From Actinomycetota bacterium (lineage in GTDB: Bacteria; Actinomycetota; UBA4738; HRBIN12), in assembly GCA_035640355.1 (NCBI GenBank), contig DASQWI010000017.1:124001-188000 (forward strand): DNA of 64,000 nucleotides. Reading direction: 5' to 3'. Positions 17,054 to 39,419 of the stretch are shown piece by piece (positions within the stretch are counted from its first letter, which is position 1; each line of letters begins with the position of its first letter). The position numbers and the translations under genes were made by a program. The notes beneath the pieces were generated by a model. It was not told the DNA's origin. It did no database searches and was given only the letters and a program-made list of their open reading frames with translations.

Positions 17054-17620
17054 CTAGCGCGCCAGAGCGAGGAAGTTCCTGATGATCTTCGGCCCGTCGG
17101 GCGTGAGGATCGACTCGGGGTGGAACTGCACGCCGAAACGCGGACGCGTCCGATCGCGCGTCGCCATCACCAAGCCGTCGTCGCTCCACGCCGTGAGCTC
17201 GAGACCGTCGGGCAGGCCGACCCGTCTCACCACGAGCGAGTGGTATCTCGCCGCCTCGAAGGGGTTCGGTACTCCGTCGAACAGGCCCTTCCCGTCGTGG
17301 TGCACGAGTGACGCCTTCCCGTGGACCGGCGTCGCGCGCTCGACGATGCCACCCGCCGAAACGCCCAGAGCCTGGTGGCCGAGGCACACGCCGAGAACGG
17401 GAGTCTCCTGGGGAAGGATCTCCAGCAGTTGGGGGAAGCACCCGGCGTCCTCAGGCCGTCCGGGCCCGGGCGACAGGACCACCGCCGACGGTTTGCGCTC
17501 GAGCAGACGCGCGGCGGGCTCGGCGTCGCTCTTGACGACCTCGGTCCGTTCGCCGAGGCTCTCGATCAGCTGCACCAGGTTGAACGTGAAGCTGTCGTAG
17601 TGGTCGACGACGAGGATCAC
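17054..17620 (-). CDS. trpG: Anthranilate synthase component II (glutamine amidotransferase)
   Basis: A 188-residue class I glutamine amidotransferase that feeds ammonia to TrpE. The catalytic triad is Cys79 (GVCLGHQALG), His167 and Glu169 (VQFHPESILT); the oxyanion strand SPGPGRPEDAG is present. The GTG start at 17620 overlaps the trpE stop by 4 nt and is preceded by GAGGAG inside the trpE tail. PabA (folate) is the alternative, since the subunit is often shared, but the Trp leader peptide upstream of trpE favours tryptophan. No other trp genes follow; the unit ends against the convergent protease gene with 13 nt between stops. Confidence 0.93.
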   Translation of the reverse strand: MILVVDHYDSFTFNLVQLIESLGERTEVVKSDAEPAARLLERKPSAVVLSPGPGRPEDAGCFPQLLEILPQETPVLGVCLGHQALGVSAGGIVERATPVHGKASLVHHDGKGLFDGVPNPFEAARYHSLVVRRVGLPDGLELTAWSDDGLVMATRDRTRPRFGVQFHPESILTPDGPKIIRNFLALAR

Positions 17621-19152
17621 GTTCCCCGCTCCTCGTCACGGGGGGCTACGCTCGCTCGCTCTCGCTCGCTCGCTTCTTGAGCCCCCCGCACGCCCCGCAT
17701 GCTCTCCGCGTCGACGACCGCCGGCAGCAATGCGGCCGCCTTCGCATTCGTCTCCTCGAGCTCCACATCGGGATCCGAGTCCGCAACGATCCCCGCACCG
17801 GTTTGGACGTGCGCCCGGCCGTTCGCTACGACCGCGGTTCGGATCGTGATGCAGAAGTCGAGGTCGCCTGCGAAGGTGCAGTACCCCACGGCGCCCGCGT
17901 ACGGTCCGCGCGGGGTCGGCTCATGTTCGGCGATCAGTTCCATCGCCCGCCGCTTGGGGGCACCGGTCACGGTACCTGCGGGGAACGTTACCGACAGGGC
18001 GTCGAGCGGATGACAGTCGTTTGCGAGCTCGCCTTCCACGGTGCTCACGATGTGCATCACCTTCGAGAAGCGCTCAACGACCATGAGCTCAGTCGGTCGG
18101 ACGGTCCCCGGCACGCAGACGCGACCGAGGTCATTTCGAGCCAAGTCGACGAGCATCGCGTGTTCCGCGCGCTCCTTCGGGTCCGCGAGAAGCTCGTGCT
18201 CGTACAGACGGTCGCGGAGCTCGGTTTCCCCCCGCGGCCGCGTGCCCGCGATCGGTCTGCTCACGACAGTTCGTCCCTCGACGCGCACGAGCGGCTCCGG
18301 CGACGAACCCGCGAGCTCCAGTCCGAGCATCCGCACGAAGAACATGTACGGCGCCGGATTCGTTACGCGGAGACGCCGGTACACGGGAAGGCCGCCGCGC
18401 GACGAGGTGAAGCTGACGCGACGCGACGGAACGACCTGATAGACGTCGCCCGCGTAGACGTGCTCCTTCATCGTCCGGACGATGTCGCGGAAGTGGTCGT
18501 CCGTCATGTTCGCGTCCCCGCCCGAGTCGATGAGTCCGTCGCCGAGCGGCTCGGGGGAAGGAGCTGCAGGCGATGAGACGCGGTTGGAGAGCTCCTCCAG
18601 CGCGTCGACGGCGCCGTCGTAGCCGCCGGCCGGAACGTGCGCGACGAGCAGCAGCCGCTGCCGCCAGTGGTCGAACACGATCGCCCGGTCCACGACAAGC
18701 AAGCCGATGGGAGGCGCCGGGGTCTCGCCGGGGGGGACGGGATGTCCGTCGACGAGCTGCGCGGCCTCGTAGGAAAGGAAGCCGACGAGTCCACCAGTGA
18801 GCGACGGGAGCCCATCGACGCGCGGAGCTCGAAGGCGTGTCGCCAGAGAAACGAGATCGCGGCGAGCGTTGCCGCTCGAACGAACGTCGAAGCCGAGATC
18901 GCGGACGACGTCGTGAACGTGGAGGCCGCCTTCATCCAGGACGACGACGGCGGCAGGATCCCCAGCGACGAACGAGTACCGGCCCCACCGCTCGGAACGC
19001 TCCACACTCTCGAGCAGGACACCGGGCCCGTCACCCGCGAGTGCAGGGAAGACTCCGACCGGCGTCGAGACGTCGGCGAGCAGCTCTGTCCACACCGGCG
19101 CGAGCGCGCCCGCAGATGCGAGGGCGTCGAACGCTTCTCGGTTGGGGAGCAC
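17617..19152 (-). CDS. trpE: Anthranilate synthase component I
   Basis: A 511-residue chorismate-using enzyme making anthranilate. Family motifs: LLESVERSERWGRYSFV (feedback Trp site region), GGLVGFLSYEAAQ, AGDVYQVVPSRR, PEPLVRVEGRTVVSRPIAGTRPRG, DLARNDLGRVC, FPAGTVTGAPKRRAMELI and VQTGAGIVADSDPDVE. The start is GTG 19152; an AGGAG sits 17 nt upstream, unusually far, so the start is slightly uncertain. The C-terminus runs about 26 residues past the usual end and that extension is encoded by a palindromic repeat shared with pduO (17640-17687). Expression is probably attenuated through the leader peptide at 19261-19305. Confidence 0.94.
   Translation of the reverse strand: MLPNREAFDALASAGALAPVWTELLADVSTPVGVFPALAGDGPGVLLESVERSERWGRYSFVAGDPAAVVVLDEGGLHVHDVVRDLGFDVRSSGNARRDLVSLATRLRAPRVDGLPSLTGGLVGFLSYEAAQLVDGHPVPPGETPAPPIGLLVVDRAIVFDHWRQRLLLVAHVPAGGYDGAVDALEELSNRVSSPAAPSPEPLGDGLIDSGGDANMTDDHFRDIVRTMKEHVYAGDVYQVVPSRRVSFTSSRGGLPVYRRLRVTNPAPYMFFVRMLGLELAGSSPEPLVRVEGRTVVSRPIAGTRPRGETELRDRLYEHELLADPKERAEHAMLVDLARNDLGRVCVPGTVRPTELMVVERFSKVMHIVSTVEGELANDCHPLDALSVTFPAGTVTGAPKRRAMELIAEHEPTPRGPYAGAVGYCTFAGDLDFCITIRTAVVANGRAHVQTGAGIVADSDPDVELEETNAKAAALLPAVVDAESMRGVRGAQEASERERASVAPRDEERGT
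17640..17687 (-). repeat. Palindromic coding repeat, copy A (in trpE)
   Basis: GGGGGGCT (17640-17647) and AGCCCCCC (17680-17687) are a perfect inverted repeat around a 32-nt core rich in GCTC. On the trpE strand it reads GGGGGGCTCAAGAAGCGAGC and onward to GCGTAGCCCCCC, translated in frame as GAQEAS, ERER, ASVAPR. Similarity with the pduO copy extends beyond the palindrome to about 17627-17698, including a right flank with GAGGAG that serves as the trpG ribosome-binding site. The insertion lies exactly at the end of the conserved TrpE domain. Confidence 0.75.
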
Positions 19153-23221: not shown

Positions 23222-23240
23222 GGAGGGTGCGCTCAAAAAG

Positions 23241-23777
23241 GTGGGCGAGCGGGAGCGCGCGAACGTCGTCCCCGCGGCGCGGGGGGTGCGCTCGGTGGGT
23301 GCGACAGATCGAGGAGCCGTCGAGGAGATGGTCCGGCCGGTGGTCGAAGCGGCCGGGCTCGAGCTCTGGGACGTGGAACTTCGTGGCCAGGAGGGCCGGC
23401 CGGTCCTGCGGGTCACTGTCGACCGCGAGGGCGGCGTCGATCTCGACGCCGTCGCCGAGGTGTCGGAACGACTGTCCCGACGCCTCGACCTCGAGGACTT
23501 CTCGGATCGGCCGTACCAACTGGAGGTCAGTTCGCCCGGCGTGGAGCGGGCGCTGCGCGAGCCGCGCCACTTCGAGCGGAGCATCGGGCGGACGCTGAAG
23601 GTGAAGACGGCGGTGCCCGTCGATGGGCAGCGGGTGCATGAGGGCGCGTTGGTCTCGGCCGACGCGGAGGCGATCGTGATCGCATCCGACGGCGGAGAGC
23701 TGCGCGTCCCGTACACGGACGTCGCGTCCGCGAAGACGAAGTTCGAGTGGGGCGCAGAGAAGAGGAACCGACGATGA
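23241..23777 (+). CDS. rimP: Ribosome maturation factor RimP
   Basis: A protein of up to 178 residues needed for 30S maturation. The family core is VRPVVEAAGLELWDVELRG, RPVLRVTVDREGGVDLDAVAEVSERLS and YQLEVSSPGVERALREPRHF, with the SH3-like C-terminal domain ending at about KFEWGAEKR. The start is uncertain: GTG 23241 is 13 nt from GGAGGG; GTG 23295 gives about 160 residues, has GGGGGG 8 nt upstream and fits the usual RimP N-terminus best; a TTG at 23220 lies in the terminator T-run and is unlikely. The stop overlaps nusA (ATGA). Confidence 0.9.
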   Translation: MGERERANVVPAARGVRSVGATDRGAVEEMVRPVVEAAGLELWDVELRGQEGRPVLRVTVDREGGVDLDAVAEVSERLSRRLDLEDFSDRPYQLEVSSPGVERALREPRHFERSIGRTLKVKTAVPVDGQRVHEGALVSADAEAIVIASDGGELRVPYTDVASAKTKFEWGAEKRNRR

Positions 23778-27302: not shown

Positions 27303-27315
27303 CCCGGCGGAGTCC

Positions 27316-27366
27316 GGGGGGTCGGAAGCGAGAGAGGTGGGCGAGTTACCACCCCCGAAATGGAGG
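27316..27366 (+). repeat. Diverged candidate copy C of the palindromic repeat
   Basis: In the 68-nt infB-ylxP spacer, GGGGGG (27316-27321), AAGCGAG (27326-27332), GGCGAG (27340-27345), CCCCCG (27352-27357) and GGAGG (27362-27366) occur in the same order and similar spacing as in the trpE and pduO copies. It is non-coding here and its GGAGG is the ylxP ribosome-binding site. Identity is patchy, so this could be chance within a GC-rich spacer. Confidence 0.4.
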
Positions 27367-38819: not shown

Positions 38820-39419
38820 TCAGCGGCTCCTCGGTTCGGCCTCCCCGGCGGCGATCCGCGCGAGCACGAACAGAAGGTCCGAAAGCCGGTTGAGGTAGCG
38901 CACCACCGCGTCGTTCACTCTCCCGCCACCCTCTTCGCGGGGGCGAACGCTCGCCTGGTGGCTCGCTTCTTGCGCCCCCGCCGCGCCTCGCCACTCGACG
39001 ACGCGGCGCTCGGCACGGCGAACGATCGCGCGCGCGACGTCGAGCGAAGCGGAGACCGGGTTCGCGCCTGGCACGACGAACGCGTTCGGCAGCGGATGCG
39101 TCCGTACATGCTCGTCGATTGACGATTCGAGTCGTTCCACCATCTCGTCCGTAACGAGCGAGACGTCCGGTTCCAGCCGGTGGCGCTCGTCGGGGTTCGT
39201 CGCGAGATCGGCGCCGACGACGAACAGCTCACGCTGCCTCGCGAGGAGCTCCTCGCGAAGGTCTTCGTCGCCGCTCAGCGCGCGGGCGAGACCGATGGCC
39301 GCGACCGCCTCGTCCACCGTCCCGTACGCGTCCGTAGCGACATCCGATTTGGAGACCCGTCCGCCGTACAAGAGCCCCGTCGTGCCATCGTCGCCCGTCT
39401 TCGTGTAGATGCGCGGCAC
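38820..39419 (-). CDS. pduO: PduO-type ATP:cob(I)alamin adenosyltransferase
   Basis: A 199-residue trimer-forming enzyme that makes adenosylcobalamin. Landmarks: the N-terminal ATP-binding IYTKTGDDGTTGLLYGGRV, DAYGTVDEAVAAIGLARA, FVVPGANPVSASLDVARAIVRRAERRVV and the C-terminal YLNRLSDLLFVLAR, all intact. Between RRVVEW and VNDAVV, where homologues have about six residues, sits an insertion of about 24 residues encoded by the palindromic repeat (38937-38981); it lies between helices near the C-terminal active-site helix. Activity is plausible because the catalytic ends are preserved. GTG 39419 has a -10 hexamer 6 nt upstream, so the gene is likely leaderless. Confidence 0.9.
   Translation of the reverse strand: MPRIYTKTGDDGTTGLLYGGRVSKSDVATDAYGTVDEAVAAIGLARALSGDEDLREELLARQRELFVVGADLATNPDERHRLEPDVSLVTDEMVERLESSIDEHVRTHPLPNAFVVPGANPVSASLDVARAIVRRAERRVVEWRGAAGAQEASHQASVRPREEGGGRVNDAVVRYLNRLSDLLFVLARIAAGEAEPRSR
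38937..38981 (-). repeat. Palindromic coding repeat, copy B (in pduO)
   Basis: GCGGGGGCG (38937-38945) and CGCCCCCGC (38973-38981) form a perfect 9-bp inverted repeat around a 27-nt core. Read on the pduO strand it begins GGGGGCGCAAGAAGCGAGC and ends GCGTTCGCCCCCGCGAAGAG, translated GAQEASHQASVRPREE. It aligns with the trpE copy from about 38923 to 38993: by eye 26 of 31 bases match in the left part and most of the right part. Same relative strand, same reading frame. Confidence 0.75.

Follow-up and report, generated by a model that had tools for sequence, protein, structure and literature searches.

How did two unrelated genes, trpE and pduO, come to contain the same palindrome and to translate it into similar peptides? 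The question arises in a window of 64,000 nucleotides, the whole stretch of DNA analysed here, which is part of contig C17 of a draft genome (G000; 2.79 Mb, 97% complete). Protein-decorating palindromes are known mainly from Rickettsia and from a set of REP-bearing bacteria. A reading of this DNA from its letters alone (hereafter the sequence-only reading) had proposed a mobile or duplicating palindrome that survives by being translatable, in an actinobacterium. WhiB was detected in 9 of 9 element-bearing genomes tested and, within the control set, matched Corynebacterium only; with WhiB in all nine, the host is an actinobacterium.

Copies of the palindrome and their anatomy

The arms of the homologous palindrome were found in trpE and pduO where the sequence-only reading had placed them. 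It had described the two copies as being on the same strand relative to the gene, and in both this is the coding strand, here the minus strand (Table 1). The translations agree with the GAQEAS-type peptides that it reported, reading GAQEASERERASVAPRDE in TrpE and GAQEASHQASVRPREE in PduO. The TrpE copy encodes a C-terminal extension, RGVRGAQEASERERASVAPRDE, at the trpE/trpG junction, and the insertion in PduO is genuinely internal. A third, decayed copy after infB scores weakly in the window alone (E=0.94), and its orthologous copy in the sister species G001 reaches E=0.0013. The element-like sequence at the start of rimP lies in the same operon region as this decayed copy.

Table 1. Element copies, their stem arms and the genes around them (positions in the window)
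Feature	Position	Strand	Basis or remark
Copy 1 of the palindromic element	17633..17696	-	covariance model 62.9 bits, E=8e-12 (within model training set)
Copy 1, outer stem arms	17639..17647 with 17680..17688	.	9/9 complementary
Copy 2, in-frame inside pduO (corrinoid adenosyltransferase)	38932..38989	-	58.9 bits, E=7e-11 (in training set)
Copy 2, outer stem arms	38937..38945 with 38973..38981	.	9/9 complementary
Copy 3, decayed	27306..27363	+	fills infB / DUF503 gene gap, co-oriented with both (neighbours: Pfam)
Copy 4, doubtful, decayed, at rimP start	23222..23282	+	E=0.16 in window; gene: Pfam
trpE, host gene	17617..19152	-	ORF and orthologues
trpG-type glutamine amidotransferase, overlaps trpE end	17054..17620	-	ORF; Pfam GATase
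pduO-type cobalamin adenosyltransferase, host gene	38820..39419	-	ORF; Pfam Cob_adeno_trans

A blastn search of the genome with its own trpE copy gave 15 matches at E<=0.01, the pduO copy among them, with unlinked copies at E = 9e-15, 6e-11 and 4e-10. A covariance model trained on 14 copies over 60 positions found 27 copies (E<=0.01) in the same genome and 24 in G001 (67% complete), all counted in draft genomes, the most decayed copies scoring weakly and being uncertain. The family thus extends far beyond the two copies from which the sequence-only reading started. Copies at E<=0.001 by the same model occurred in 5 of the 27 genomes of the class, and most relatives of the same family had none.

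The element begins with a 5' tail of GGGGGGTNC or similar, of the GGGGTNC type, and ends with a purine-rich 3' tail. Its outer stem is rich in G and C, GGGGGGC(C/T)...(G/A)GCCCCCC, and is followed by the 5' internal loop CAAGAA and the inner stem. The latter reads GC-GA-GCGC...GCGC-GA-GC, and its GA steps stand opposite each other as G-A mismatches. The inner part exists in two main versions within the genus. Compensatory changes were seen at the top of the outer stem (CG/UG/GC/UA) and in the inner stem (CG/UA), and the stem covariation score of 0.163, against a shuffle mean of 0.100, was reached by 0 of 500 shuffles, a score that kinship among the sequences can inflate. The T run of an intrinsic terminator is absent after the stem, where purine-rich sequence is found instead, and eight element loci gave no Rfam match at E<=1. 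In tandem, the copies repeat every 62-63 bp. One array, with a period of 62 bp, has two units in G000 (L048/L050) and three in G001 (L147/L181) and might serve as a strain-typing marker.

Across the phylum, the pattern GGGGTNCGGGGGGCY-N(4,34)-RGCCCCCC matched 26 times in 7 of 397 genomes, against a single match for the reversed control, and the families that bear it are f13 and f16 besides f1, the family of the window's host. The f16 copies are mostly shorter, about 45 bp, with a reduced inner hairpin and cores of 30-39 nt. These shorter relatives have the tails and the outer stem in common with the genus copies, a likeness to be read with the fact that f16 copies were chosen by a pattern that fixes a GGGGTNC-like foot, whereas copies in the genus (g1) were found without that constraint; the f16 3' tail is conserved over about 12 nt. 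A copy in G066, in the gap between an atpG-like and an atpD-like gene (names read from translations), is almost identical to the long form. In-frame copies in f16 were found in acetoacetate-CoA ligase, where the extra residues correspond to a gapped region in the alignment to PDB 4wd1, and in GlnE, a BTAD/AAA regulator and a DHODB-type protein. The GlnE copy of G052 is an in-frame antisense element just before the conserved GMGKLGG motif (L206, near 1501-1530). A match of the strict pattern in Elusimicrobia (L180) was rejected as a chance match at a gene end with no palindrome, and two strict patterns found no match among the viral contigs of IMG/VR.

Filled and empty sites in two sister species

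Empty sites were sought by searching G001 with the joined flanks of the G000 copies, and then in reverse. At eleven sites one of the sister species has the element where the other has an empty site, with the neighbouring genes kept. Seven of them are filled in G000 (trpE, recG, glgB, the ffh-rpsP gap, L047, L053 and L054) and four in G001 (L069, L075, L148 and L150, one of these a tandem pair); the joined-flank search of G001 also found copies common to both species. At the trpE site G001 reads AGCATG-TT-GGAGCGGGG, and G000 has 65 bases replacing TT. The pduO insert is present in G000 and G001 only; in 24 other genomes of the class a short loop occupies its place. The insertions that the sequence-only reading had supposed to be absent from relatives are indeed missing, from the sister species in TrpE and from these 24 relatives in PduO.

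The junctions of the 11 pairs have a sharp 5' edge at the G run and a 3' edge at which 0-9 target bases are replaced. No target-site duplication was consistent across the pairs; L047 alone is ambiguous, a 4-bp GCGG duplication being possible there, though the element itself begins G-rich. Neither a common target word nor a common tetranucleotide was found before the 11 insertion sites. The net insertion length at coding sites was 63 in TrpE, 60 in RecG, 60 in GlgB and 63 at L069, all multiples of three, and at other sites 54, 57, 58, 59, 61 and 65, with 129 for the tandem pair.

Insertion appears far more likely than repeated loss as the origin of these differences, because the pduO outgroups lack the insert, sites are filled in both directions, the element is nearly absent elsewhere in the class and the tandem number changes. 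The direction of the change at a given site would follow from parsimony, except in pduO, where many outgroups lack the insert. Comparison of the filled and empty sequences shows a unit of about 54-65 bp in the genus that inserts at new sites, can sit in tandem and keeps its hairpin with the GGGGTNC-type 5' tail, and whose insertion makes no consistent target duplication and replaces 0-9 bases at the 3' junction. The reading that we prefer, with a probability of about 0.78, takes the copies as short mobile palindromes of one non-autonomous family, which behave like REPs and RPEs, are moved by something other than a resident Y1/RAYT transposase and encode peptides that are tolerated. The central proposal of the sequence-only reading, a mobile, dispersed and translatable palindrome in an actinobacterium, is borne out by the 27 copies, the empty sites and WhiB in nine genomes. 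With eleven filled and empty pairs between close species, insertion boundaries, strand preference and frame tolerance are directly measurable.

Placement, strand and reading frame

Gene calls and orientation counts were made with a simple home-made codon-score gene finder. Most copies lie in gaps between co-transcribed genes, where the distance to a stop or start codon is often 0-10 nt. About 3 of the 27 copies lie deep inside genes, against genes making up 77% of the window (p about 9e-13). Translatability, which the sequence-only reading had taken as the means of survival, is thus not the main way, since most copies in the genus sit between genes. In the genus, 28 of 32 sites have the G-rich strand as their coding strand (p = 2e-5); a site was counted once, provided that its neighbours or its host gene gave a consistent direction, and the strand was taken from the model matches. 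The f16 copies have the same orientation in 15 of 17 cases and the opposite one in 2.

Within proteins, internal copies were found in RecG, where the insert separates the motif I region from the conserved block that follows, and in PduO; C-terminal extensions in TrpE and GlgB; and likely N-terminal extensions in MazG, cytochrome b and a HerA-type protein. Two sense frames are in use, and RecG, GlgB and others (GGPRSERERASVGPP) differ in this from TrpE and PduO. The common reading frame described earlier therefore holds for trpE and pduO and fails as a rule for the family, and the shared peptide is no conserved feature of it, given the two sense frames and the antisense in-frame copy in GlnE. 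To judge by the translations, the frame has to be open but no particular peptide is required, and the peptide common to TrpE and PduO is a by-product, because in-frame copies use two reading frames.

Under the preferred reading of a mobile palindrome, purifying selection would remove most intragenic insertions, and the survivors would be found between the genes of an operon, at the ends of genes, or in loops whose frame is open and whose net gain in length is divisible by three. The encoded peptides would be tolerated and are probably flexible by-products. The copies in RecG, TrpE, PduO and GlnE suggest that housekeeping enzymes keep receiving insertions of 15-20 residues. The strand bias may arise because transcripts with the C-rich orientation are selected against (Rho-type polarity), or because insertion is coupled to transcription.

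Two observations concern what adjoins the element. Its purine-rich 3' tail can offer a Shine-Dalgarno-like GGAG to the downstream gene (L044, L051; the ffh-rpsP gap and others). In two distant lineages the element starts right behind the C-terminal Gly-Gly of a protein of the ThiS/MoaD family, whose members normally need a free Gly-Gly end. In G000 and G001 (L035 ORF 441-2135, minus / L061) the frame is open into a BNR-repeat protein, and in G066 (L202, ORF 1404-1883, minus) three tandem units follow.

Placement and strand also speak to a different explanation, in which the element is a conserved functional RNA hairpin between operon genes, selected for a role in mRNA stability, processing or translation coupling, and its mobility is incidental. 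Several findings are in keeping with such a role: in two distant lineages the copies are strongly biased in strand with respect to transcription, the stems show compensatory changes, stop or start codons lie within 0-10 nt, and the 3' tail can provide a GGAG. They have to be set against 11 lineage-specific sites at which the neighbouring genes were not lost, the lack of copies in most same-family relatives, copies in RecG, PduO and GlnE that have no obvious operonic role, and the lack of an Rfam match in the loci searched, so that we regard a selected RNA as rather doubtful, although it is the strongest of the rivals.

Candidate movers and known systems

An ordinary REP family whose RAYT (Y1 tyrosine) transposase was later lost, or escaped notice because the genomes are incomplete, would have much the same appearance, namely short, mostly intergenic hairpins with conservation in the 5' tail, in part tandem and in some cases intragenic (PMC3733652), inserted without clear target duplication. 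We consider it unlikely, since PF01797 (Y1_Tnp, which includes RAYT) was absent from all nine element-bearing genomes searched (G000, G001, G007, G009, G010, G035, G038, G049 and G052, with G066 outside the set), drafts in which a gene could be missed, while the same search was positive in ten other genomes of the phylum. In addition, the foot of the hairpin is GGGGTNC, with no GTAG or CGTC tag, and the sequence before the 11 insertion sites has no tetranucleotide that recurs consistently. The family is REP/RPE-like and falls outside the REP class in the sense of PMC3733652, because the GTAG/CGTC tag is lacking and the search detected no RAYT.

Short, non-autonomous, dispersed copies with inverted repeats could also be expected of a MITE, that is, a deletion derivative of a DDE insertion sequence. 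This origin seems quite improbable given 11 filled and empty pairs without consistent target duplication and inverted repeats that form one central hairpin with extra tails and are not terminal. The absent duplication argues against a DDE transposase as the mover, a conclusion drawn from the junctions.

Spread through a reverse-transcribed hairpin RNA, of the retron or intron type, would suit the strand bias relative to transcription, and a single RVT_1 match is indeed present in G000 (C7:79339-79746, in L227). Reverse transcriptase occurs, however, across most of family f1 with or without copies, including the copy-free relatives G002, G004 and G005, and RVT_1 was not found in the copy-rich G052 and G038. 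With no correlation between gene and copies, reverse transcriptase was rejected as the mover; no element at a good score lies adjacent in three reverse transcriptase loci, and this route is very improbable indeed. Finally, that the two peptides are a coincidence, which the 69% G+C of the window might favour through G/C palindromes, or orthologous residues kept by descent, is refuted by the blastn E-values down to 9e-15 between unlinked copies, the empty sites in the sister species and the absence of the PduO insert from 24 relatives.

What, then, moves a duplication-free hairpin in genomes without a detected RAYT gene? The least certain steps of the preferred mechanism are that the mover would be other than a resident Y1/RAYT transposase, and that the hairpin may be joined in as a single strand, without target duplication, by a trans-acting enzyme or by host repair. 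A bolder and tentative extension is that mobile hairpins of one class span the phylum and spread with neither RAYT nor DDE transposase nor resident reverse transcriptase, for example by single-strand hairpin capture during repair or transcription. If true, hairpin capture would explain together why no duplication is seen, why a few bases are replaced at one junction and why the strand bias is so strong.

In the open papers searched, no described actinobacterial family of such palindromes was found, and the comparison is with systems known from other bacteria. The element resembles bacterial MITEs (Correia, ERIC, BOX, RUP) as a non-autonomous short intergenic repeat that can fuse to genes, and it differs from them in having neither the usual terminal inverted repeats nor a consistent target duplication. 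The likeness to REPs of the GTAG and CGTC superfamilies (PMC3733652) is closer, as these too are short dispersed hairpins, mostly intergenic beside coding ends, that occur in tandem or in clusters and are intragenic in several species, repair genes included. The present element differs from REPs in its GGGGTNC foot in place of a GTAG or CGTC tag, its longer unit with a second inner hairpin and conserved 3' tail, the lack of a detected RAYT gene, its strong orientation bias relative to transcription and its host in the Actinomycetota. The sequence-only reading had named Rickettsia as the place where translatable mobile palindromes are known, which is right for the RPEs but too narrow, as intragenic REPs, including some in repair genes, are known in several bacteria outside Rickettsia (PMC3733652). 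RPEs are about 150 bp long, with nearly half of them inside genes (PMC10969869). Like RPE-1 to RPE-10, the element is a palindromic insert that lies in frame in unrelated housekeeping genes and is tolerated at variable positions, here RecG, PduO, TrpE, GlgB, GlnE and others, as known from their open frames. At 45-65 bp, rich in G+C and intragenic in only a minority of its copies in the genus, it differs from the RPEs as described in length, base composition and placement.
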